Translations under genes and position numbers: made by a program | Notes under the pieces: generated by a model | What the model was told of the DNA's origin: nothing | Seen by the model: the letters and a program-made list of their open reading frames with translations, nothing else | Databases searched by the model: none | Shown here: piece after piece, positions 34,907 through 46,839 of the stretch | Numbering within the stretch: the first letter of the stretch is position 1 | Layout: every line of letters begins with the position of its first letter | NCBI RefSeq assembly: GCF_003385955.1 | Contig: NZ_QRDW01000001.1 | Span: forward strand, 789,893-853,892 | DNA length: 64,000 nucleotides | Origin: Aestuariispira insulae | GTDB taxonomy: Bacteria; Pseudomonadota; Alphaproteobacteria; UBA8366; Aestuariispiraceae | Reading direction: 5' to 3'

Positions 34907-35695
34907 ATGATGAAGAATTCCTTGAGATGCTTCTTAATGTGTCTAAGTATTTTGGTCGCGACTGCCGCCCAAGGGGCCGACCAAGCGCGGACGATCACCA
35001 TATCAACTGGTGAATACCCGCCCTATGCCTCAAAGGAATTCGTCCATTTCGGATTGGTCCCCCGCATCGTCAGTGAAGCCTTTGCGTCCGAAAATATCGA
35101 GGTCGAGTATCGATTTTTCCCCTGGGCCCGATCCTATGAATTGTCCCGGGACGGCATGGTGGATGCCACTGCCTATTGGTACTATTCCAAGGAGCGCCAG
35201 GCAGACCATATCTACAGTGATCCCCTGTTCGAAGACGTGATTGTCTGGTTTCACCGCAAGGATCTGGATTTTCAGTGGAAGAAGTTAGGAGATTTGACCG
35301 ACTACCGGATCGGTGCAGTAAATGGCTACACTTATACACCCGAATTCTATGCCTTGATCAAACAGGGAATCCTATCCGTGGAATTCGTCAACCGGGACCA
35401 ATTGAATTACCGGAAACTGGTGGGCGACCGGATCGATGCCTTTCCGGAAACCCTGGATACCGGGCTTTATTACATCCAGTCCAACCTGACACCGGCCCAG
35501 GCCGCGCACATCACCTATCACCCACAGCCATTTTCGAAAAAACGCACCTTTCTGCTGGCCCCACGGATAAAGCCAGAATCGGCTGAATTGATCCGTGCCT
35601 TCAACCGCGGCCTGGCCCGCCTTATAGCCGATGGCCGCTTCCAGCAATTCATCTCGGAATCACGTCTGGGCGGGTCTCTGCCGCCAATAAACTAA
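34907..35695 (+). CDS. Orphan periplasmic solute-binding protein (SBP_bac_3-like)
   Basis: A 262-residue protein with a signal peptide (cleavage after AQGA near residue 24). The mature domain opens with RTITISTGEYPPYASKEF, has VEYRFFPWARSYELSRDG and then the second lobe DYRIGAVNGYTYTPEF, the standard order of the polar amino-acid-binding fold. It is distantly similar to the protein encoded at 32017. No ABC permease or ATPase is nearby, and it is divergent from the DUF4153 gene. Ligand unknown. Confidence 0.82.
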   Translation: MMKNSLRCFLMCLSILVATAAQGADQARTITISTGEYPPYASKEFVHFGLVPRIVSEAFASENIEVEYRFFPWARSYELSRDGMVDATAYWYYSKERQADHIYSDPLFEDVIVWFHRKDLDFQWKKLGDLTDYRIGAVNGYTYTPEFYALIKQGILSVEFVNRDQLNYRKLVGDRIDAFPETLDTGLYYIQSNLTPAQAAHITYHPQPFSKKRTFLLAPRIKPESAELIRAFNRGLARLIADGRFQQFISESRLGGSLPPIN

Positions 35696-35784: not shown

Positions 35785-37140
35785 TTGACGAAACTTAGTA
35801 AAAAACAACGGGAAAAACTGTTGGAGGCAGGCCGCCTGCTTCGGGAAGCGGAAAAACCCGTGCGGGTGCTTCGCACGGTTGGCTGGCCGCCGGAAGTCGC
35901 GGCAAAATTCTTCACCGACGGGGCAAAGGAGCTTCCGCGCCATGACTATGTTCCGGTCGATGACAGTCCGGTACAGGAAAAACTGGCAGCGGCGCGGAAA
36001 CTGATCGATGGCGACAGTCCGGCCCATCTCTGGCTCACCCGTGCCGCCCAATCCCTGGAGACCGGGGCGCGCATGCTTTCCGCCGTCGGCACCAAGGCTT
36101 TCCATGACCATTCAGCAAGCCTGTATAAGACACCGGCTGCCCCCATGCTGGATGGCGAAAGCCGCCCATTGGACCTGGCCCTCCAGTTGGATGAAACTTT
36201 AGAGGCCTTCCGCCCCACCGATGGGCAGCCGCTGGGCACGCCGGAACCTTCCGAGGTGATGGGGGCTGATGAGCTGGCTGCGCGCATGCGCCCGGTAATT
36301 GAGCGTTTTTTTGGCGAAGAAGCTCCCGAAGTCACGGTGGTGGACAGCCTCTCCGCCAACGCGCTGGCCGGGCCCCGTGCCATCCGGCTGCGCCGTGGTG
36401 CGGCCTTTACGCCGCATGATCTGCAGCAATTGATCCAACATGAAGCCTTCATCCATGTAGCCACCTCGCTGAATGGCAAAGCCCAGGAAGACCTTCCGCT
36501 GCTGGCGGGCGGCCATCCGGGAACAACCCGGACCCAGGAAGGTCTTGCAGTCTTTTCGGAGATGATCACAGGTGCCATGGACCCAGCTCGGCTGCGCCGT
36601 CTGGCCGATCGGGTCATTGCGATCCAGATGTCCATTGAAGGCGCCGACTTCCTTGAGCTTTACCAGTTTTTCCGGGAACGCGGCAATGGCGAAGGGCAGG
36701 CTTTTGAATCCGCCAGACGGGTCGTGCGCGGCGGCCTGGTCACCGGTGGCGCCCCCTTTACCAAGGATGTGGTTTATCTGGAGGGCCTGTTGCAGGTCCA
36801 TAATTTCCTGCGCGCCACGGTTCAGTTCGGTCGGCTGGATTGCTTGCACCTGCTTTTTGCCGGAAAGCTGGATGTTCAGGACCTGCCCGCATTGATCATG
36901 CTGGCGGAAAACGGCCTGTGCCGTTTCCCCCGCTTTTTGCCGCCCTGGGTGGTGGATTCTGGCTTCCTGATATCCTATCTCGCCTATTCATCCTTCCTAA
37001 ATCGGGTGAACCTGACGAAGGTGCGCCAGCATTATCATGACATGCTGGCCCATATCCCAAAACTGGATATCCCGGTCCGGGAGAGCGACCCCTTCGTCCA
37101 TGTAACCGTCGCAAGCACCAACGGCATGGATCTGGATTAA
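35785..37140 (+). CDS. QEGLA-motif (DUF1704) metallocarboxypeptidase-like protein
   Basis: A 451-residue member of DUF1704, annotated in bacteria as 'flavohemoglobin expression-modulating QEGLA motif protein'. The metal motif HEAFIH (HExxxH, His219, Glu220, His224) and the name-giving QEGLA at 251-255, which supplies the third ligand glutamate, are intact. Eukaryotic relatives (MATCAP) remove C-terminal tyrosine from tubulin, so a carboxypeptidase activity on an unknown protein or peptide is plausible here. The start is TTG 35785, with AGGAAG ten bases upstream; an overlapping ATG at 35775 is out of frame and stops quickly. Its neighbours do not form an operon with it. Confidence 0.88.
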   Translation: MTKLSKKQREKLLEAGRLLREAEKPVRVLRTVGWPPEVAAKFFTDGAKELPRHDYVPVDDSPVQEKLAAARKLIDGDSPAHLWLTRAAQSLETGARMLSAVGTKAFHDHSASLYKTPAAPMLDGESRPLDLALQLDETLEAFRPTDGQPLGTPEPSEVMGADELAARMRPVIERFFGEEAPEVTVVDSLSANALAGPRAIRLRRGAAFTPHDLQQLIQHEAFIHVATSLNGKAQEDLPLLAGGHPGTTRTQEGLAVFSEMITGAMDPARLRRLADRVIAIQMSIEGADFLELYQFFRERGNGEGQAFESARRVVRGGLVTGGAPFTKDVVYLEGLLQVHNFLRATVQFGRLDCLHLLFAGKLDVQDLPALIMLAENGLCRFPRFLPPWVVDSGFLISYLAYSSFLNRVNLTKVRQHYHDMLAHIPKLDIPVRESDPFVHVTVASTNGMDLD

Positions 37141-37310: not shown

Positions 37311-37616
37311 TCAGGCCATGCCAAGCGCCGACATATAGGTTTCCAGCAGGGCTTCCTGCTCGGCGCGGTCATTCTGGTCCATCTTGCGGATCTTGATGAT
37401 CTGGCGAATGGTCTTCACGTCAAAACCGTCCCCCTTCGCCTCGGCATAGACTTCCTTCACATCTTCGGCCAATGCTGCCTTTTCTTCTTCCAGGCGTTCA
37501 ATGCGCTCGATAATGGAACGCAGGCGCTCCCCGGTCACACCGGTGGCACCGGCGGTGCTTTCCACCTCGGCAATGGCTTCGGCAACATTCGGCTGGAAAC
37601 CTTCGGTATCGGACAT
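37311..37616 (-). CDS. gapR: GapR nucleoid-associated protein (DUF2312)
   Basis: A 101-residue protein. The last 75 residues match GapR: GERLRSIIERIERLEEEK, then AEDVKEVYAEAKGDGFD, then KTIRQIIKIRKMD. It has long helices that form a tetrameric clamp around overtwisted AT-rich DNA. GapR travels ahead of replication forks and stimulates topoisomerases, and is essential in Caulobacter. The extra 25 residues at the N-terminus are acidic and poorly conserved. It is transcribed alone, divergent from hemN, and closed by a strong terminator. Confidence 0.95.
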   Translation of the reverse strand: MSDTEGFQPNVAEAIAEVESTAGATGVTGERLRSIIERIERLEEEKAALAEDVKEVYAEAKGDGFDVKTIRQIIKIRKMDQNDRAEQEALLETYMSALGMA

Positions 37617-39259: not shown

Positions 39260-40510
39260 ATGGCTTATTTTCAGGGATCTTTTGGGCTTGTCGTCATTTG
39301 CCTTCTGGCCTGGGCGATAAGTGAAAACAGACGTGCGGTTTCGTGGAAACTGCCGTTGGCAGGGATCGGGCTGCAACTTGTTATTGCTGCGTTGCTGTTG
39401 AAACTGCCCGTCTCGCGCGAGCTGTTTCTATGGATGAATTCCCTGGTGCTTGCCATTGAACAGGCCACCGAGGCCGGCACCAAACTTGTCTTTGGCTATC
39501 TGGGCGGCGGCCCCCTTCCCTTCGAAGAACCTTTCCCCGGTGCGGCCTGGATCCTGGCCTTTCGCGGCCTGCCGATCATCCTGGTGATGAGCGCACTTTC
39601 CGGCCTGCTTTTCTATTGGAAAATCCTGCCACTGATTGTGCGCGGATTTTCCTGGCTGCTGCGCCGTTCGCTCGGAATTGGCGGTGCGGTCGGTGTCAGT
39701 GCCGCAGCCAATGTCTTTGTCGGCATGGTCGAAGCCCCGCTTTTTGTGAAACCCTATCTCCTGCGCCTGACAAGGGCGGAGCTGTTCATGGTCATGTCAG
39801 TGGGCCTGTCCACGGTCGCGGGAACGGTCATGGTGCTGTATGCAACGATCCTGGGCCATGTCATCCCCGGTGTCCTGGGCCATATCCTGACCGCATCGAT
39901 CATCAGTGCGCCCGCCGCATTGTTGATCGCACGCCTGATGGTCCCCGATAACGGCGAGGCCACCGAAGCGGACCGTATGACACCACCGGCGGAAGCCGAC
40001 AGTGCCATGGAAGCGATAGTCAACAGCACCGGCATGGGGATCAAACTGATCGCCAATATCATTGCCATGCTGATTGTCATCGTGGCCCTGGTCTATCTGG
40101 TCAACCAACTATTCGCTTTCCTGCCCAATGTTGATGATACCCCGCTGACCATCCAGCGCATCACCGGTTGGATCTTCGCGCCGCTGGCCTGGCTAATGGG
40201 CATGAGTTGGAACGAGGCCCTCGTCAGCGGGGAGCTGTTTGGAACCCGTTTGGTGTTGACCGAATTTGTTGCTTATCTGGATATGAGCAAGCTGCCGATG
40301 GGAACCCTATCGGAACGCGCCAATGTCATCATGCTGTATGGATTATGTGGCTTTGCCAGCCTGCCCAGCCTCGGCATCATGATCGGCGGTTTGGGCGCCA
40401 TGGTACCGGAAAGACGGGCGGAAATCCTGGAACTGGGTTTTAAATCCGTCCTGGCCGCCACCCTGGCAACCGCCATGACCGGCACCGTGGCCGGGTTGCT
40501 CAGTTTCTAG
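39260..40510 (+). CDS. Concentrative nucleoside transporter (CNT/NupC family)
   Basis: A 416-residue membrane protein with about ten hydrophobic segments. The CNT signatures are present: an N-terminal domain (about 8-80), the gate region with VSAAANVFVGMVEAPLFVKP, and the C-terminal nucleoside-binding region FGTRLVLTEFVAYLD. It imports nucleosides with Na+ or H+. Its last four bases overlap the end of the convergent membrane acyltransferase gene. ATG 39260 follows TCAGGGGTTCTC, a usable site. Confidence 0.92.
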   Translation: MAYFQGSFGLVVICLLAWAISENRRAVSWKLPLAGIGLQLVIAALLLKLPVSRELFLWMNSLVLAIEQATEAGTKLVFGYLGGGPLPFEEPFPGAAWILAFRGLPIILVMSALSGLLFYWKILPLIVRGFSWLLRRSLGIGGAVGVSAAANVFVGMVEAPLFVKPYLLRLTRAELFMVMSVGLSTVAGTVMVLYATILGHVIPGVLGHILTASIISAPAALLIARLMVPDNGEATEADRMTPPAEADSAMEAIVNSTGMGIKLIANIIAMLIVIVALVYLVNQLFAFLPNVDDTPLTIQRITGWIFAPLAWLMGMSWNEALVSGELFGTRLVLTEFVAYLDMSKLPMGTLSERANVIMLYGLCGFASLPSLGIMIGGLGAMVPERRAEILELGFKSVLAATLATAMTGTVAGLLSF

Positions 40511-41250
40511 AGGATATAGGTAACTGCCAGATACAGACCACCGAATAAGATCGGCTGGTGCAGCATATAAATCAGCAGGCTGTGCCGGCCGGCCAGACCG
40601 CAGAGACGGAAGATCGCCTGATCAGTGCGCCAGCCGAGAATCCAAGGATGGGCCAACATCCAGCGCCCCAGGATCACCCCTGACAAGGATAGACCGAACC
40701 ATGGAAAAACCGGCACATAATCTGAGGGCTGCCCAACCGGCCACCAGAGACCCAGCCAGGAAAGCCAGGGGGCGGCGAAAGCCTCTGAAAACAGCCAGAA
40801 AGGCCCCGACAGGAAGAAGGCTGTCAGACACAATATCAGGATCGACGGCAGACGCCCGAGCAACAACAAAAGCAAACTGGCCAACGCGATATGGTGCAGG
40901 ATGCCAAAGTAAATGAAACTGCCTGGGTCCATCTGATAGGTTCCCAAGGAAATCACAGCGGCACAGGCTGCCACCTTTAACCATCGCAAGACAAAGGGTT
41001 TCGGCAGAATTCCCCTGGTTTGGACCAGCACAAAGGCAATGCCGGAAACCAGCAATATGGTCCCGGCGATGCTTCTAGCGAACCAGACCCAGAACGGATC
41101 TGACGTGATCTGAATATCAGCCAGCCCGAAAAAGCTGAGATCCCAGGAAAAATGGAAGACAATCATGGCCAGAATGGCCAGACCGCGTACCGCATCAACC
41201 AGATCATATCGGATGGTTGGCACCCGCCTCTCCCCTTTTCCCAGGCTCAC
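40507..41250 (-). CDS. DUF1624 membrane protein (heparan-alpha-glucosaminide acetyltransferase-like)
   Basis: A 247-residue protein with about seven transmembrane helices. It carries the DUF1624/HGSNAT N-terminal hallmark RYDLVDAVRGLAILAMIVFHFSWDLSFFG, in which the conserved Asp, Arg and His of YeiB/HGSNAT-type acyltransferases are present, and a second HIALASLL motif. Members are thought to move acetyl groups across the membrane onto sugars or other amines. It starts nine bases after the DUF1244 stop and so ends the four-gene operon that begins at 43632. Specific substrate unknown. Confidence 0.85.
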   Translation of the reverse strand: MSLGKGERRVPTIRYDLVDAVRGLAILAMIVFHFSWDLSFFGLADIQITSDPFWVWFARSIAGTILLVSGIAFVLVQTRGILPKPFVLRWLKVAACAAVISLGTYQMDPGSFIYFGILHHIALASLLLLLLGRLPSILILCLTAFFLSGPFWLFSEAFAAPWLSWLGLWWPVGQPSDYVPVFPWFGLSLSGVILGRWMLAHPWILGWRTDQAIFRLCGLAGRHSLLIYMLHQPILFGGLYLAVTYIL

Positions 41251-41259
41251 AAGCGAGGC

Positions 41260-41577
41260 TTATCCTTCACCATGAGTTTTGGCGTGGGAGATCTCAAATT
41301 GGGCCAATTGCTCCGCACTGGCCTCTTTCTGGTATTTGGCCTTCCAATCGTCATAGGGCATGCCATAAATGATCTCGCGCGCATCATCATAAGTCATGTC
41401 CAGCCCTTTATCCTCAGCCGCCTTTCTGTACCATTTCGAGAGGCAGTTCCGACAAAAGCCAGCCAGATTCATCATGTCGATATTCTGCACATCCGTGCGT
41501 TCGCGGAAATGCGCCACCAGTGTGCGGAAAGCAGCCGCTTCCAGTTCAATGCGTGTCTGGTCATCCATGGACGCCAT
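41260..41577 (-). CDS. DUF1244 domain-containing protein
   Basis: A 105-residue protein matching DUF1244: TRIELEAAAFRTLVAHFRER, then NIDMMNLAGFCRNCLSKWYRKAA (which includes Cys-x-x-Cys), then YDDAREIIYGMPYDDWK. It is a small helical protein, conserved across alphaproteobacteria, without known function; the CxxC could bind metal. I choose ATG 41577, with GGGAGAGA upstream, rather than 41604. It lies between the ligase and acyltransferase genes in one operon. Confidence 0.85.
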   Translation of the reverse strand: MASMDDQTRIELEAAAFRTLVAHFRERTDVQNIDMMNLAGFCRNCLSKWYRKAAEDKGLDMTYDDAREIIYGMPYDDWKAKYQKEASAEQLAQFEISHAKTHGEG

Positions 41578-41637
41578 CTCTATCTCTCCCAAGAGTTCAA
41601 TCAAACATCGGTTATATCTAATCAGATCCCAGCGGTT

Positions 41638-42795
41638 TTAAACCGGGATGTCATGCACGGTCTCGTCAATGAGCCAATCCACCACGTCATCCAGCGCCTG
41701 TTGCTCGGTTTTATTGGCCGCCAAGGCCTCGTTATAGACACGCACCTGATTGTCAGCACTGCTGCCGCGATGGAGGATTTCCCGCGCCTGCGCCACTTCC
41801 CTCACGCAACCCAGGATTTCCTGGTCTTCCGCCGTCAACTCGATCAACTCTTCCAGCAGATCCGCATAATCAATGATCTGAGCCTTGCCGAAATCAATCA
41901 GCCCCTGGGAAAAGCCATAGCGTTGCGCCCGCCAACGGTTTTCGTTGATCAACATATCGGAATACATGCGCCAGCGCTGGTTAGAGCGGCGCAACCGTTG
42001 CAGCATGGACAGCAGACAGGCATAGAGTGCTGCCACGGTGATGCCATCCTCCAGCCGGGTGCAGATGTCGGCGATCCGCATTTCCAGGGTCGGGAATTTG
42101 CAATGGGGCCGAATATCCCACCACATCTTGGACCCATCTTCGATCACACCCGCCTTGATCAGCATATTTAAGTGGCGCTGATATTCTGACCAGCTTTCAA
42201 ACCGTTCCGGCAGGCCGGTGCGCGGCAATTCGTCAAACACCGCCAGACGGTAACATTTCAGGCCGGTATTATGGCCGCGCCAGAAAGGCGAGGATGTGGT
42301 CAGTACCAACAGATGAGGCAAAAAATAGGATACCTGGTTCAACAGATCGATGCGAGTATCATCATCATCAAAACCCACATGAACATGCATGCCGCAGATC
42401 ACCAGACGCTGGGCCACCGCCTTCAGATCGTTGGCCAGCATGTTATAGCGTTCTTTATCCGTATGCTGCAGCTGCTGCCAATTGGCAGTCGGGTGGGTTG
42501 AGGCGGCAATCGGCGCAAGGCCATGGCGCCTGGCAGACCGGGCGACGGCACCGCGCATATGCACCAGTTTTTCCCGTGCCTCCCCGATCGAACGGCAGAC
42601 TGCGGTGCCGACCTCCACCTGCGCCTTGAGGAATTCAGGCGTGGCAAAACCGATGGTTTCATCCACTTCCTTCAATACATCATTGATAACCGCTTCCTGG
42701 ACACCGGTATCGCTGGTTAGCTGGCGCGTCTCGGGATCAACCAGAAGATATTCCTCTTCAATGCCGATGGTCAGACTGCTGATCTTCTTGGCCAT
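41638..42795 (-). CDS. Carboxylate-amine ligase, GCS2 family (YbdK-like)
   Basis: A 385-residue ATP-dependent ligase of the glutamate-cysteine ligase 2 family. It has LTIGIEEEYLLVDPETRQL at the start (metal and glutamate site), the HVHVGFDDDD strand and the WDIRPHCKFPTLEMRIAD nucleotide-binding strand. E. coli YbdK has weak gamma-glutamylcysteine synthetase activity, but the true substrates of the group are unknown. AAGGGGGCG precedes the ATG, 12 bases after the N-formylglutamate amidohydrolase stop, so the two enzymes are tightly linked. DUF1244 follows after about 60 bases. Confidence 0.9.
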   Translation of the reverse strand: MAKKISSLTIGIEEEYLLVDPETRQLTSDTGVQEAVINDVLKEVDETIGFATPEFLKAQVEVGTAVCRSIGEAREKLVHMRGAVARSARRHGLAPIAASTHPTANWQQLQHTDKERYNMLANDLKAVAQRLVICGMHVHVGFDDDDTRIDLLNQVSYFLPHLLVLTTSSPFWRGHNTGLKCYRLAVFDELPRTGLPERFESWSEYQRHLNMLIKAGVIEDGSKMWWDIRPHCKFPTLEMRIADICTRLEDGITVAALYACLLSMLQRLRRSNQRWRMYSDMLINENRWRAQRYGFSQGLIDFGKAQIIDYADLLEELIELTAEDQEILGCVREVAQAREILHRGSSADNQVRVYNEALAANKTEQQALDDVVDWLIDETVHDIPV

Positions 42796-42807
42796 GAAAG
42801 CGCCCCC

Positions 42808-43632
42808 TTAATCCGCCAAACGGGCTTCCCCCTGATAGGCGGTATAGACATGCGGGTCGGCCAGCACCTCTTCCAGGGCGTCACCGACTATTTCTCCCCA
42901 TTCCTGCTGGCCCGCTTCGGTCCGGATCAGATCCTGGCGGATCTCCAGCAACACATTGGGCAATCCGCCCGGAAGTGCATGGGTTTCAATAGTATAGCCG
43001 TAAGGGTCCATGCCGGAATAGGGTTTGTTATCGCCAATGCACAAATCCGGACGCTGTTTGGCCAGAACCTTCATTAATGCCTCGCCCATGCGCCGGTCCC
43101 GGTTCATCAGGACACCGATATGCCAGGGGCGTTTGGCGCCGCGCATCTGGTCCGTGCAGCTATGCACCGAAATAATCGCCGGCAAGCGGCCATGTTCATG
43201 CCGGGAGGCAATGGCATCGGCCACACGTTCATGATAGGGCCAGTAGATCTCGTCCTGGCGCGCTTTGCGCTGTTCGGCGGAAATATTCCGGTTGCCCGGA
43301 ACAATGTCACCATCGGATATTTCCCGGATACTGGTAAAATCATCAACTGGTCGGTTGATATCGATTACCAGCCGGGAATAACCGCCGATCACAGCCGGTG
43401 CATCCAGACGGCGTGACAGATAATCTGCAACACCTTGTGCGCCAATATCATAAGCAATATGCCGTTCCATGATACCTGGTTGCACGCCAAGGCCGAACAG
43501 GGCCTCCGGCACCGCCTGACCCGCATGGTCACAGACGATCACAACCGGCGCGCGCCCGTCTGGATTGCTCACGGTTACCGGGGCCGGATCATTGGCGGTC
43601 AAAAGGCGGGATTGGGTCATTACTTCAGTCAT
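42808..43632 (-). CDS. N-formylglutamate amidohydrolase family protein
   Basis: A protein of about 274 residues matching the N-formylglutamate amidohydrolase (HutG/COG3741) family. VIVCDHAGQAVPE is an early conserved block, with YDIGAQGVADYL, VIDINRP and the ISVHSCTD strand; Asp, His and Glu residues in these form the zinc site of the family. The classical reaction is release of formate from N-formyl-L-glutamate at the end of histidine degradation, but no other hut gene is here. It heads an operon with a carboxylate-amine ligase, so another N-acyl substrate is possible. The start (GTG 43635, ATG 43632 or ATG 43620) is uncertain because no clear ribosome-binding site is seen. Confidence 0.87.
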   Translation of the reverse strand: MTEVMTQSRLLTANDPAPVTVSNPDGRAPVVIVCDHAGQAVPEALFGLGVQPGIMERHIAYDIGAQGVADYLSRRLDAPAVIGGYSRLVIDINRPVDDFTSIREISDGDIVPGNRNISAEQRKARQDEIYWPYHERVADAIASRHEHGRLPAIISVHSCTDQMRGAKRPWHIGVLMNRDRRMGEALMKVLAKQRPDLCIGDNKPYSGMDPYGYTIETHALPGGLPNVLLEIRQDLIRTEAGQQEWGEIVGDALEEVLADPHVYTAYQGEARLAD

Positions 43633-43884
43633 CACTTAGCCGGATAATGTCTCTGGTCACGGACTATACAGATTTCTGTCCCGTAATAAAGGCTTGAGCC
43701 CAAACCACCGCCGGCATCCCCCGGCAAGGGAACGATCTGGCAAAATTGTTCCGGGTGTAACTTTACAACTGATAGCCAACAACGTTCAGAAAAACATCAC
43801 GCAGGAATAATCATATGATCACAAACCGGGAATGAAATACCTGCCGACCACGGGTCTTACCTTAATCAATCCCCGGAGCAGGAT

Positions 43885-45600: not shown

Positions 45601-46839
45601 ATGAAACGGGGTGACAGCCACAAGATCACTTTCACCAACCGCCAGGGGCAGACATTGGCGGCCAGGCTGGATCTGCCGTTGGAAACGCCTAGGGCTTATG
45701 CGCTTTTTGCCCATTGCTTTACCTGTTCTAAAGATATTTTCGCCGCCAGCCGGATCGCCCAGGGCCTAACAAATAATGACATTGCTGTGCTGCGATTTGA
45801 TTTCACAGGACTTGGTGCCAGCGAAGGAGAATTTGCCAATTCAAATTTCAGTTCCAATGTGGAAGACCTAGAGGATGCCGCCCGGTTTCTCGCAGAGGAA
45901 TATGAGTCCCCCGCACTCTTGATCGGCCATAGCCTGGGCGGGGCAGCAGTCCTGGTGGCAGCCCCCAGATTGGAAAGCGTGCAGGCGGTTGCCACCATCA
46001 ATGCGCCGGCCGATCCAGATCATGTGAAAGAGAATTTCCATTATGCCCTGCCGGAAATTCAGGAATCCGGTGCCGCGCAGGTAACCCTGGCTGGCCGCCC
46101 CTTCACAATCAAACGGCAGTTTCTGGAAGATATAGCCCAACAACGGCTGGCCGATGAAATTGCCACCATGAAAAAAGCACTGCTGGTGTTCCATGCTCCA
46201 CTGGATCAGCAGGTCGGCATTGAAAATGCAGCTAAGATTTTTAAGGCCGCCAAACATCCCAAAAGCTTCATCTCCCTGGACCAGGCGGATCATCTGCTCA
46301 GCGACCGGCAGGATGCGATCTATGTGGCCGATCTTCTCGGATCCTGGGCACGGCGCTACCTTCCCGCCCCTGACTCTGCCATCCATCCAGAAGATCTGTC
46401 AGAAGGCGAAGTTTTGGTTCAGGAAAACGGTGTCGGCCGGTTCTCCCAAACCATATCGGTCGGCGGACGCCATAAACTTCTTGCGGATGAGCCGCCGCGG
46501 ATCGGCGGCACTGATACAGGCCCCACCCCCTATGATCTGCTGTTAAGCGGTCTTGGTGCCTGCACGACGATGACCATGCGCATGTATGCACAACGCAAGG
46601 GGCTTTCCCTTGATCGTGCCAAGGTCACATTACGCCATGAGAAGATTCATGCCGATGACTGCGAAAGCTGCGAGTCGCAGGGCGGCAAAATAGACAGGAT
46701 CGAGCGCAGAATAGAGCTTATCGGCGATCTCAGTAACAAAGAGCGGGCAAAACTGCTGGAGATTGCCGACAAATGCCCGGTTCACAGAACCCTGCATTCC
46801 GAAGTCCAGATCAACAGCCGCCTTGCAGATGACGAATAG
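45601..46839 (+). CDS. Bifunctional alpha/beta hydrolase-OsmC fusion protein
   Basis: A 412-residue two-domain protein. Residues 1-255 form an alpha/beta hydrolase with the nucleophile elbow GHSLGGAAVL (Ser near 109), a FDFTGLGASEGEF segment and a C-terminal His in DQADHLLS. Residues 275-408 form an OsmC domain, with GLGACTTMTMRMYAQRKGL (first Cys) and KCPVHRTLHSE (second Cys). Fusions of this type are known in proteobacteria. They plausibly hydrolyse a thioester or ester and remove a peroxide, but the substrate is not known. GGGAACG precedes ATG 45601. It converges on the acyl-CoA synthetase gene. Confidence 0.9.
   Translation: MKRGDSHKITFTNRQGQTLAARLDLPLETPRAYALFAHCFTCSKDIFAASRIAQGLTNNDIAVLRFDFTGLGASEGEFANSNFSSNVEDLEDAARFLAEEYESPALLIGHSLGGAAVLVAAPRLESVQAVATINAPADPDHVKENFHYALPEIQESGAAQVTLAGRPFTIKRQFLEDIAQQRLADEIATMKKALLVFHAPLDQQVGIENAAKIFKAAKHPKSFISLDQADHLLSDRQDAIYVADLLGSWARRYLPAPDSAIHPEDLSEGEVLVQENGVGRFSQTISVGGRHKLLADEPPRIGGTDTGPTPYDLLLSGLGACTTMTMRMYAQRKGLSLDRAKVTLRHEKIHADDCESCESQGGKIDRIERRIELIGDLSNKERAKLLEIADKCPVHRTLHSEVQINSRLADDE

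Follow-up and report, generated by a model that had tools for sequence, protein, structure and literature searches.

A conserved gene pair of an FGase-family amidohydrolase and a GCS2 ligase in Aestuariispira insulae, possibly acting on gamma-glutamyl amides

Gene layout at the locus

The window, i.e. the whole stretch of 64,000 nucleotides of Aestuariispira insulae DNA that was analysed, carries genes for an FGase-family amidohydrolase (FGase), a GCS2 carboxylate-amine ligase, a DUF1244 protein and a DUF1624 membrane acyltransferase in this order, and a GapR-like gene (Table 1). Coordinates, open reading frames and Pfam matches agreed with the four minus-strand genes of the original prediction and with gaps of 12, 60 and 9 bases for the listed starts. 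Pfam scores were 148.6 bits for FGase, 180.3 for GCS2, 134.3 for DUF1244 and 210.6 for HGSNAT_cat, for which DUF1624 is an older name; the gathering scores of 28.9 for PF05013 and 22 for HGSNAT_cat were both exceeded. Judged by the sequence, the four genes are real and their arrangement is operon-like.

The ribosome-binding site of the ligase had been predicted right at the amidohydrolase stop, and AAGGGGG overlaps this stop directly before the ligase ATG. In DUF1624 a second GTG at 41223 is preceded by AAAAGGGGAG; we judged it the better start, which would leave a gap of 36 between DUF1244 and DUF1624. A pattern scan yielded 2 promoter-like sites where shuffling predicted 2.8, and 8 terminator-like sites where it predicted 3.5; of the latter, seven were located within genes, one upstream of FGase and none in the three intergenic gaps. 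The scan was uninformative.

Table 1. Features of the FGase-ligase locus, in positions of the window
Feature	Position	Strand	Remarks
FGase-family (PF05013) amidohydrolase	42808..43635	minus	GTG start; alternative ATG 43632; gene 1 of the core pair
GCS2 / PRK13515 carboxylate-amine ligase	41638..42795	minus	gene 2 of the core pair; NF010039 match, GhExE motif
FGase-ligase junction, 12 bases	42796..42807	minus	likely ligase ribosome-binding site overlapping FGase stop, read from sequence
DUF1244 (PF06844) small protein	41260..41577	minus	Pfam match; CRNC invariant; part of wider syntenic block
HGSNAT_cat (PF07786) / DUF1624 membrane acyltransferase	40507..41250	minus	apparent lineage-specific addition; likelier start GTG 41223
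GapR-like gene	37311..37616	minus	in relatives the far end of an FGase-GCS2-DUF1244-gapR block; displaced here

Conservation of the pair and its neighbours

All four genes, including the membrane acyltransferase, had been predicted to form one system with a possible connection to a QEGLA metallocarboxypeptidase. The tight gene order in this genome would suit a four-gene system that includes acyl transfer at the membrane and may involve QEGLA. Yet DUF1624 was found in none of 12 same-family relatives and in none of 80 related loci around the ligase, and QEGLA/MATCAP was sporadic (7 of 289 genomes) and never near the ligase (0/80 loci). Thus both look incidental, with DUF1624 as a recent, lineage-specific addition; we discarded the QEGLA link and give the four-gene system hardly any chance. 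No PDB sequence matched MATCAP at E 0.01.

The adjacency of amidohydrolase and ligase, on the other hand, is conserved well beyond close relatives, and this part of the original prediction held. FGase was located directly upstream of the ligase on the same strand in 51 of the 80 related loci with a median gap of 50 between match ends. In 289 genomes of the class at least 58 of the 79 ligase loci had it within 1.5 kb upstream, and the median gap was 36 as measured between profile ends; G224, where the pair is present with a split ligase below the cut-off, is outside the 58. Paired loci span at least 33 family codes, and 11 of 13 same-family genomes have the pair. With kinship uncorrected, FGase was among the matches listed for at least 67 of 72 ligase genomes vs at least 68 of 217 genomes without ligase. 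Five ligase genomes had no FGase among the matches listed; two of them, G154 and G252, are nevertheless matched in the genome table. Mapped onto the ligase tree, pairing required 7 changes vs 24.0 for shuffled labels with none of 500 shuffles as low. This tree is of a quick kind; 21 of its 78 inner branches are open, and the strongly supported ones by themselves call for 3 changes. Of the 80 loci, 27 had room upstream and no FGase match, thus the ligase also works without FGase. A plasmid search for the ligase returned 20 records with a best identity of 48.4%; no FGase was annotated beside the plasmid ligase in two regions inspected, where the gene table is incomplete.

Conserved gene order might reflect synteny only, i.e. 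FGase, DUF1244 and gapR could constitute an old alphaproteobacterial chromosomal block with the ligase as a passenger that shares no pathway. We consider this unlikely. Such a block is indicated by at least 33 genomes with FGase-DUF1244 adjacency and no ligase over the cut-off, although in G034, which is among these, fragments of a ligase are located between FGase and DUF1244, and by gapR being downstream in 20 of the 24 DUF1244-containing loci among the 80. The correlation of FGase and GCS2 distances was 0.875 (partial 0.735). In a length control with about 85-90 sampled columns it was 0.70, hardly above the 0.67 of FGase and GapR; this lack of specificity is compatible with synteny and weakens the correlation as proof of a common function. 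Against synteny only, DUF1244 and gapR were not found near 8 of the 51 paired loci (two of which hold less than 2 kb downstream). The neighbours of these eight differ, and seven are titled Gammaproteobacteria or its orders or genera. Moreover, the gaps between FGase and ligase are short across the family codes mentioned above.

DUF1244 is a syntenic neighbour of the pair. It follows in at least 41 of the 79 ligase loci of the class genomes, and its CRNC motif was invariant in 11 of 11 rows. Its predicted role as a helper is supported by this adjacency and by at least two fusions with FGase, which were looked for where frame lengths hinted at them; it is undermined by DUF1244 being also beside or fused with other genes in the absence of FGase. 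Clustering of neighbours in the 80 loci, which took in open reading frames of at least 60 aa and clusters in at least 4 loci, yielded no third gene tied to the pair everywhere, DUF1244 and gapR included. Further clusters comprised a divergent pyruvate kinase (16 loci; two members Pfam-checked) and a 197-aa protein (9 loci). A fusion of FGase and GCS2 was rejected because the reading frames differed in all six long ligase frames compared by hand (G087, G127, G128, G163, G231 and G261).

Families and folds of the two enzymes

With the HutG model TIGR02017 the window FGase scored 30.7 bits, far below the equivalog cut-off of 278.75. It has PF05013 in common with HutG N-formylglutamate deformylase but lacks a hut context, as none of the ten window genes scanned scored above the cut-off of a hut model. 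The true HutG of the genome (L084, 359.5 bits) is encoded elsewhere with hutI and hutF about 3-6 kb from that copy. Thus a normal role in histidine degradation, which the original prediction had named as speaking against itself, was rejected. Likewise, gshA (668.1 bits vs a cut-off of 463.15 for TIGR01436) and a gshB-family gene (243.8 bits) are carried elsewhere, and the window ligase is not the sole glutathione ligase. The claim that no hut or glutathione genes accompany the four genes is therefore correct for the scanned neighbourhood only.

Residues H36, D62, H157 and E230 of FGase were the same in all 28 rows of the alignment. The structure model (pLDDT 88.7) matched its own family best, with Z 33.0 for 2odf and 22.6 for 2q7s. 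2odf is Atu2144 from Agrobacterium, the closest solved structure with 33% identity, the entry of which is titled only as a gene product. Next by Z were the poly-gamma-glutamate hydrolases 5onj (13.2), 3a9l (12.4) and 21dc (12.1), with the amidase CwlD at 11.7, so that only 5onj exceeded the CwlD group by more than 1 Z and 3a9l and 21dc were tied with it. Poly-gamma-glutamate hydrolases cut gamma-glutamyl bonds. Yet their identity to FGase was 11-14% over 169-176 residues, and their Pfam family was not reported for FGase at E 0.001. Foldseek's own ranking placed cell-wall amidases, REP34 and aspartoacylase next, and poly-gamma-glutamate hydrolases were absent from its best 50 rows.

Aspartoacylase and aminoacylase 3 among the fold matches would also fit a deprotection followed by ligation, in which FGase strips a formyl or acyl group from N-acyl-glutamate and the ligase takes the freed glutamate in one small biosynthesis. 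N-formylglutamate gives the FGase family its name, and in paired loci the FGase gene comes ahead of that of the ligase. However, glutamate is abundant, so a dedicated source seems unneeded, and an acylating enzyme was not recognised among the recurrent neighbour clusters, most of which were judged by their first residues only. We view such a deprotection as rather improbable.

The window ligase passed the cut-off of NF010039 (PRK13515) with 514.6 bits vs 371 and missed that of the YbdK model PRK13516 with 196.3 vs 425. G10, I11, E12, E13 and E14 of its GhExE motif were invariant in 27 of 27 rows; PMC2588565 gives GhExE as the metal/ATP motif of the GCS2 / carboxylate-amine ligase superfamily. 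The structure model (pLDDT 89.5) matches gamma-glutamyl ligases, with Z 43.4 for 1tt4, 42.4 for YbdK (1r8g) and 35.4 for the plant glutamate-cysteine ligase 2gwc. The YbdK-type ligases 1r8g and 1tt4 are of the same family and fold, yet identity was 24-26% in the structural alignment, and the window ligase differs from YbdK by being paired with FGase.

The fold is also common to PafA and Dop (Z 23.5 for 4bjr and 4b0r), and the deglutamylase CCP5 was among the fold matches of FGase (Z 9.8). Both would agree with glutamylation of proteins or peptides and its removal, similar to pupylation or polyglutamylation. We consider this very unlikely: the ligase model is far nearer to YbdK than to PafA, and under the clustering limits given above DUF1244 and gapR were the only recurrent small genes that might encode a tag.

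Could the pair serve an auxiliary thiol chemistry, with the ligase as a second synthetase of gamma-glutamylcysteine or an analogue and FGase recycling the product? PMC2588565 cites a paper whose title mentions a gamma-glutamyl:cysteine ligase activity for YbdK. In addition, a pyridine nucleotide-disulphide oxidoreductase was nearby in 8 of the 80 loci (one member Pfam-checked), and an msrB-like gene was divergent to the pair in L049 and L052 (L049 Pfam-checked). Yet all eight oxidoreductase loci are without FGase, the genome has the gshA and gshB-family genes described above, and TIGR01436, the model of canonical glutamate-cysteine ligase, gave no match to the window ligase at E 0.001. A profile comparison with canonical GshA, which aligned 303 columns at probability 93.8, was uninformative about the amine. 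Thiol chemistry thus appears quite improbable.

A candidate gamma-glutamyl make-and-break pair

Taken together, the linkage is conserved, the motifs are kept, the folds are matched and neither enzyme is the genome's only HutG or GshA candidate. Our leading, still tentative explanation is that FGase and GCS2 are a hydrolase/ligase pair for gamma-glutamyl amides. With ATP, the ligase would couple an amine, presumably a small molecule, to the gamma-carboxyl of glutamate, and its product would be the substrate of FGase. FGase, probably a zinc enzyme, would release glutamate again by cutting this gamma-glutamyl amide, either as made or after processing. Acting in sequence the enzymes may support a glutamylation-based use of the amine or a protection or storage cycle. 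The predicted role in making or editing an amide fits the family and fold data of both enzymes.

The closest known system, as described in PMC6529630, is that of Streptomyces coelicolor, where GlnA4 (SCO1615) was assayed as a gamma-glutamylethanolamide synthetase for glutamylation-based ethanolamine use and an FGase-family protein near GlnA4 was predicted to hydrolyse gamma-glutamylglycine as the end product. PMC3684760 and PMC9751292 were of no relevance to the pair. Both systems combine a ligase for a gamma-glutamyl amide, putative in the window, with an FGase-family protein, and in S. coelicolor the hydrolysis is a prediction, too. In contrast to GlnA4 the window ligase is GCS2 rather than GS-like, and its gene is 12 bases from that of FGase, whereas dehydrogenases are predicted between the steps in S. 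coelicolor. As an observation against the favoured explanation, no oxidoreductase gene is located between the FGase and ligase genes, unlike in amine-utilisation pathways.

It is possible, if doubtful, that the pair represents a gamma-glutamyl cycle not yet described in Alpha- and Gammaproteobacteria: GCS2 would attach glutamate as a cap to an amine or amino compound, and the FGase-family enzyme would take this cap off again. One metabolite would then be common to the PRK13515 ligases and a large share of the non-Hut FGase family. 'Carboxylate-amine ligase' and 'N-formylglutamate amidohydrolase' are vague or misleading names, and the pairing leads to one testable hypothesis for both enzymes. 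It also sets the pair apart from the adjacent DUF1244-gapR block and from the passengers DUF1624 and QEGLA, which could lead a guess from this single operon astray. Related gene neighbourhoods, which may include that of the pair, are reportedly treated in the work of Iyer et al. 2009 on amidoligases.

Conservation of the FGase-ligase pair

The original prediction joined the PF05013-family amidohydrolase (FGase), the GCS2 carboxylate-amine ligase, DUF1244 and the DUF1624 membrane acyltransferase in a four-gene system for an amide-linked small molecule or tag. The four closely packed minus-strand genes are indeed present in the window, with gaps of 12, 60 and 9 bases. The last gap amounts to 36 bases if the acyltransferase begins at the GTG at 41223, a putative start that we judged to have the better ribosome-binding site.

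Positions of the genes in the window and of fused frames in related loci
Feature	Position	Strand	Remark
FGase	42808-43635	minus	
GCS2 ligase	41638-42795	minus	
DUF1244	41260-41577	minus	
HGSNAT_cat (DUF1624)	40507-41250	minus	
MATCAP/QEGLA metallopeptidase	35785-37140	plus	385.4 bits, TTG start
FGase-DUF1244 shared frame	L138:5929-7098		389 aa
FGase-DUF1244 shared frame	L139:6412-7542		376 aa
DUF1244-riboflavin kinase/FAD synthetase frame	L142:1632-3209		
DUF1244-riboflavin kinase/FAD synthetase frame	L143:4637-5935		

Ligase relatives were collected by a search of genome contigs and the best 80 loci were used, the nearest being that of Marivibrio halodurans with 72% identity to the ligase of the window; on this match we treated the window's genome as alphaproteobacterial. 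FGase, DUF1244, gapR, DUF1624 and MATCAP were sought there by tblastn (E 1e-4) with the proteins of the window as queries; diverged copies could therefore escape, and some loci were short. In 51 of the 80 loci the gene immediately upstream of the ligase, and in the same orientation, was FGase, with a median gap of 50 between match ends; one more locus had FGase farther upstream. No FGase match was found in 27 loci having upstream room. A ligase above the cut-off was carried by 72 of 289 genomes sampled from the class, compared with 0 of 14 control genomes. These 72 genomes hold 79 ligase loci with FGase at most 1.5 kb upstream in at least 58, DUF1244 downstream in at least 41 and both in at least 40; by hand count the FGase-paired loci spread over 33 family codes. 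Adjacency across genomes was supported for FGase and ligase. All 13 genomes of the window's own family had the ligase above the cut-off, 11 of them with FGase beside it, while the 1.5 kb ligase flanks of the other two gave no FGase match.

DUF1244 and gapR were not found in eight of the 51 paired loci, two of which have less than 2 kb downstream. Seven of the eight are titled Gammaproteobacteria or its orders or genera and one Proteobacteria, and the surroundings of the pair vary among them. In a Motiliproteus genome (L034:215-7523) the pair stands ahead of a PrkA, DUF444, SpoVR cluster, 367 bases downstream, and in another locus (L049) an msrB-like gene is divergent to the pair.

A ligase tree with 81 rows showed strong clustering of the paired state (7 changes versus 24.0 with shuffled labels). 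Against a shared role, the ligase often occurs without FGase, beside genes that are VIT1-family or, as we read the sequences, DAHP-synthase-like or NAD-synthetase-like. In the 20 loci with FGase, ligase, DUF1244 and gapR all present, FGase and ligase distances correlated at 0.875 (partial 0.735), and none of 2000 permutations was as high. On approximately 85-90 sampled columns the value was 0.70 versus 0.67 for FGase and GapR, and the partial correlation went down to 0.48. With these sampled values, the correlation reflects a common history of the genes more than any particular link between FGase and ligase.

Folds and a possible common substrate

The ligase belongs to PRK13515 by profile (514.6 bits) and keeps the GhExE motif. 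Its predicted model (pLDDT 89.5) matched 1tt4 (Z 43.4), YbdK (42.4) and plant glutamate-cysteine ligase (35.4), followed by other glutamate-cysteine ligases (25-27), PafA/Dop (18-24) and glutamine synthetases (about 16). Enzymes in this list target the gamma-carboxyl of glutamate. A separate gshA (668.1 bits) and a gshB-family match (243.8 bits) are present in the same genome.

HutG was ruled out as the identity of FGase by score (30.7 versus a cut-off of 278.75), and a separate HutG (359.5 bits) is encoded elsewhere in the genome, with hutI and hutF about 3-6 kb away. A histidine-degradation role for FGase, which would have spoken against the original prediction, is thus rejected. Its residues H36, D62, H157 and E230 were invariant in 28 aligned rows and are present also in 2odf; by analogy with M14-type peptidases we take them to be candidate metal ligands and base. 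The predicted FGase model (pLDDT 88.7) matched 2odf with Z 33.0 (250 residues, rmsd 1.8) and 2q7s with 22.6. Next came the poly-gamma-glutamate hydrolases 5onj (13.2; 169 residues, rmsd 2.9), 3a9l (12.4) and 21dc (12.1), then the amidase CwlD (11.7) and others. In Foldseek's own ranking the FGase family was followed by cell-wall amidases, REP34 and aspartoacylase, and the 50 rows listed included no poly-gamma-glutamate hydrolase. The lead of these hydrolases in the fold list of the model is small and has no counterpart in this ranking.

Because a gamma-glutamyl-type ligase is kept beside an amidohydrolase of a glutamate-handling family, the simplest reading is that the pair acts on a single gamma-glutamyl amide, which would be common to both enzymes. 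No dehydrogenase lies between them, so the compound would not need to undergo oxidation while capped. The GlnA4 system offers a parallel: in PMC6529630, GlnA4 was shown to make gamma-glutamylethanolamide, hydrolysis of gamma-glutamylglycine is predicted for a FGase-family protein encoded nearby, and the authors liken the pathway to an in silico-predicted one of Chromohalobacter salexigens. Combined name searches, outside which the likely source Iyer et al. 2009 falls, found no published description of the pair.

The genome of the window encodes a third FGase (L085:8213-9756), which overlaps a DNA alkylation repair-like gene by 4 bases.

DUF1244 and gapR

DUF1244 was downstream of the ligase in 24 and gapR in 30 of the 80 loci; the 20 loci with both had the order ligase, DUF1244, gapR without exception. 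In the window these two genes are separated by DUF1624, a nucleoside transporter and hemN. DUF1244 directly followed FGase in at least 33 genomes without a ligase above the cut-off, and two loci of different family codes (L138 and L139) have FGase and DUF1244 in a single open frame, each with a possible internal start; L140 shares its family code with L138 and has the two genes apart. Yet in two loci an in-frame fusion joins DUF1244 to riboflavin kinase/FAD synthetase, and elsewhere DUF1244 adjoins other genes, being ahead of gapR in several loci. Given the adjacency and FGase fusions on the one hand and these other fusions and neighbours on the other, DUF1244 is a plausible, though not exclusive, partner of FGase.

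One of the genomes counted above as having FGase followed by DUF1244 and no ligase above the cut-off (G034:C12:76007-77666) has short ligase fragments between FGase and DUF1244, as if the ligase had decayed. In L141:5504-6691 and L158:5532-6317 a stretch without Pfam match precedes DUF1244 and gapR at the position that FGase has in other loci; in L141 a single frame covers both this stretch and DUF1244.

Genes set apart from the pair

The acyltransferase and the suggested link to the QEGLA metallopeptidase had to be dropped, as neither DUF1624 nor MATCAP was found by tblastn (E 1e-4) in any of the 80 ligase loci, some of them short. PF07786, the DUF1624 family, occurred in 3 of 19 genomes searched, namely that of the window and two others from its order, both without a ligase above the cut-off, and in 0 of 12 other same-family genomes. 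MATCAP was perhaps gained horizontally, since just 7 of the 289 class genomes carry it.

Relatives carry other insertions in the region; L119, for instance, has genes with TetR, alcohol dehydrogenase and CMD domains. Immediately upstream of FGase, both L119 and L180 have an AMP-binding (acyl-CoA synthetase-like) gene. The window also holds an OsmC domain fused to an alpha/beta hydrolase (45601-46839, plus strand). Its genome has two solute-binding-protein-like genes (SBP_bac_3), one at 34907-35695 (plus strand) of the window and one near hut genes (L084:6129-6908).
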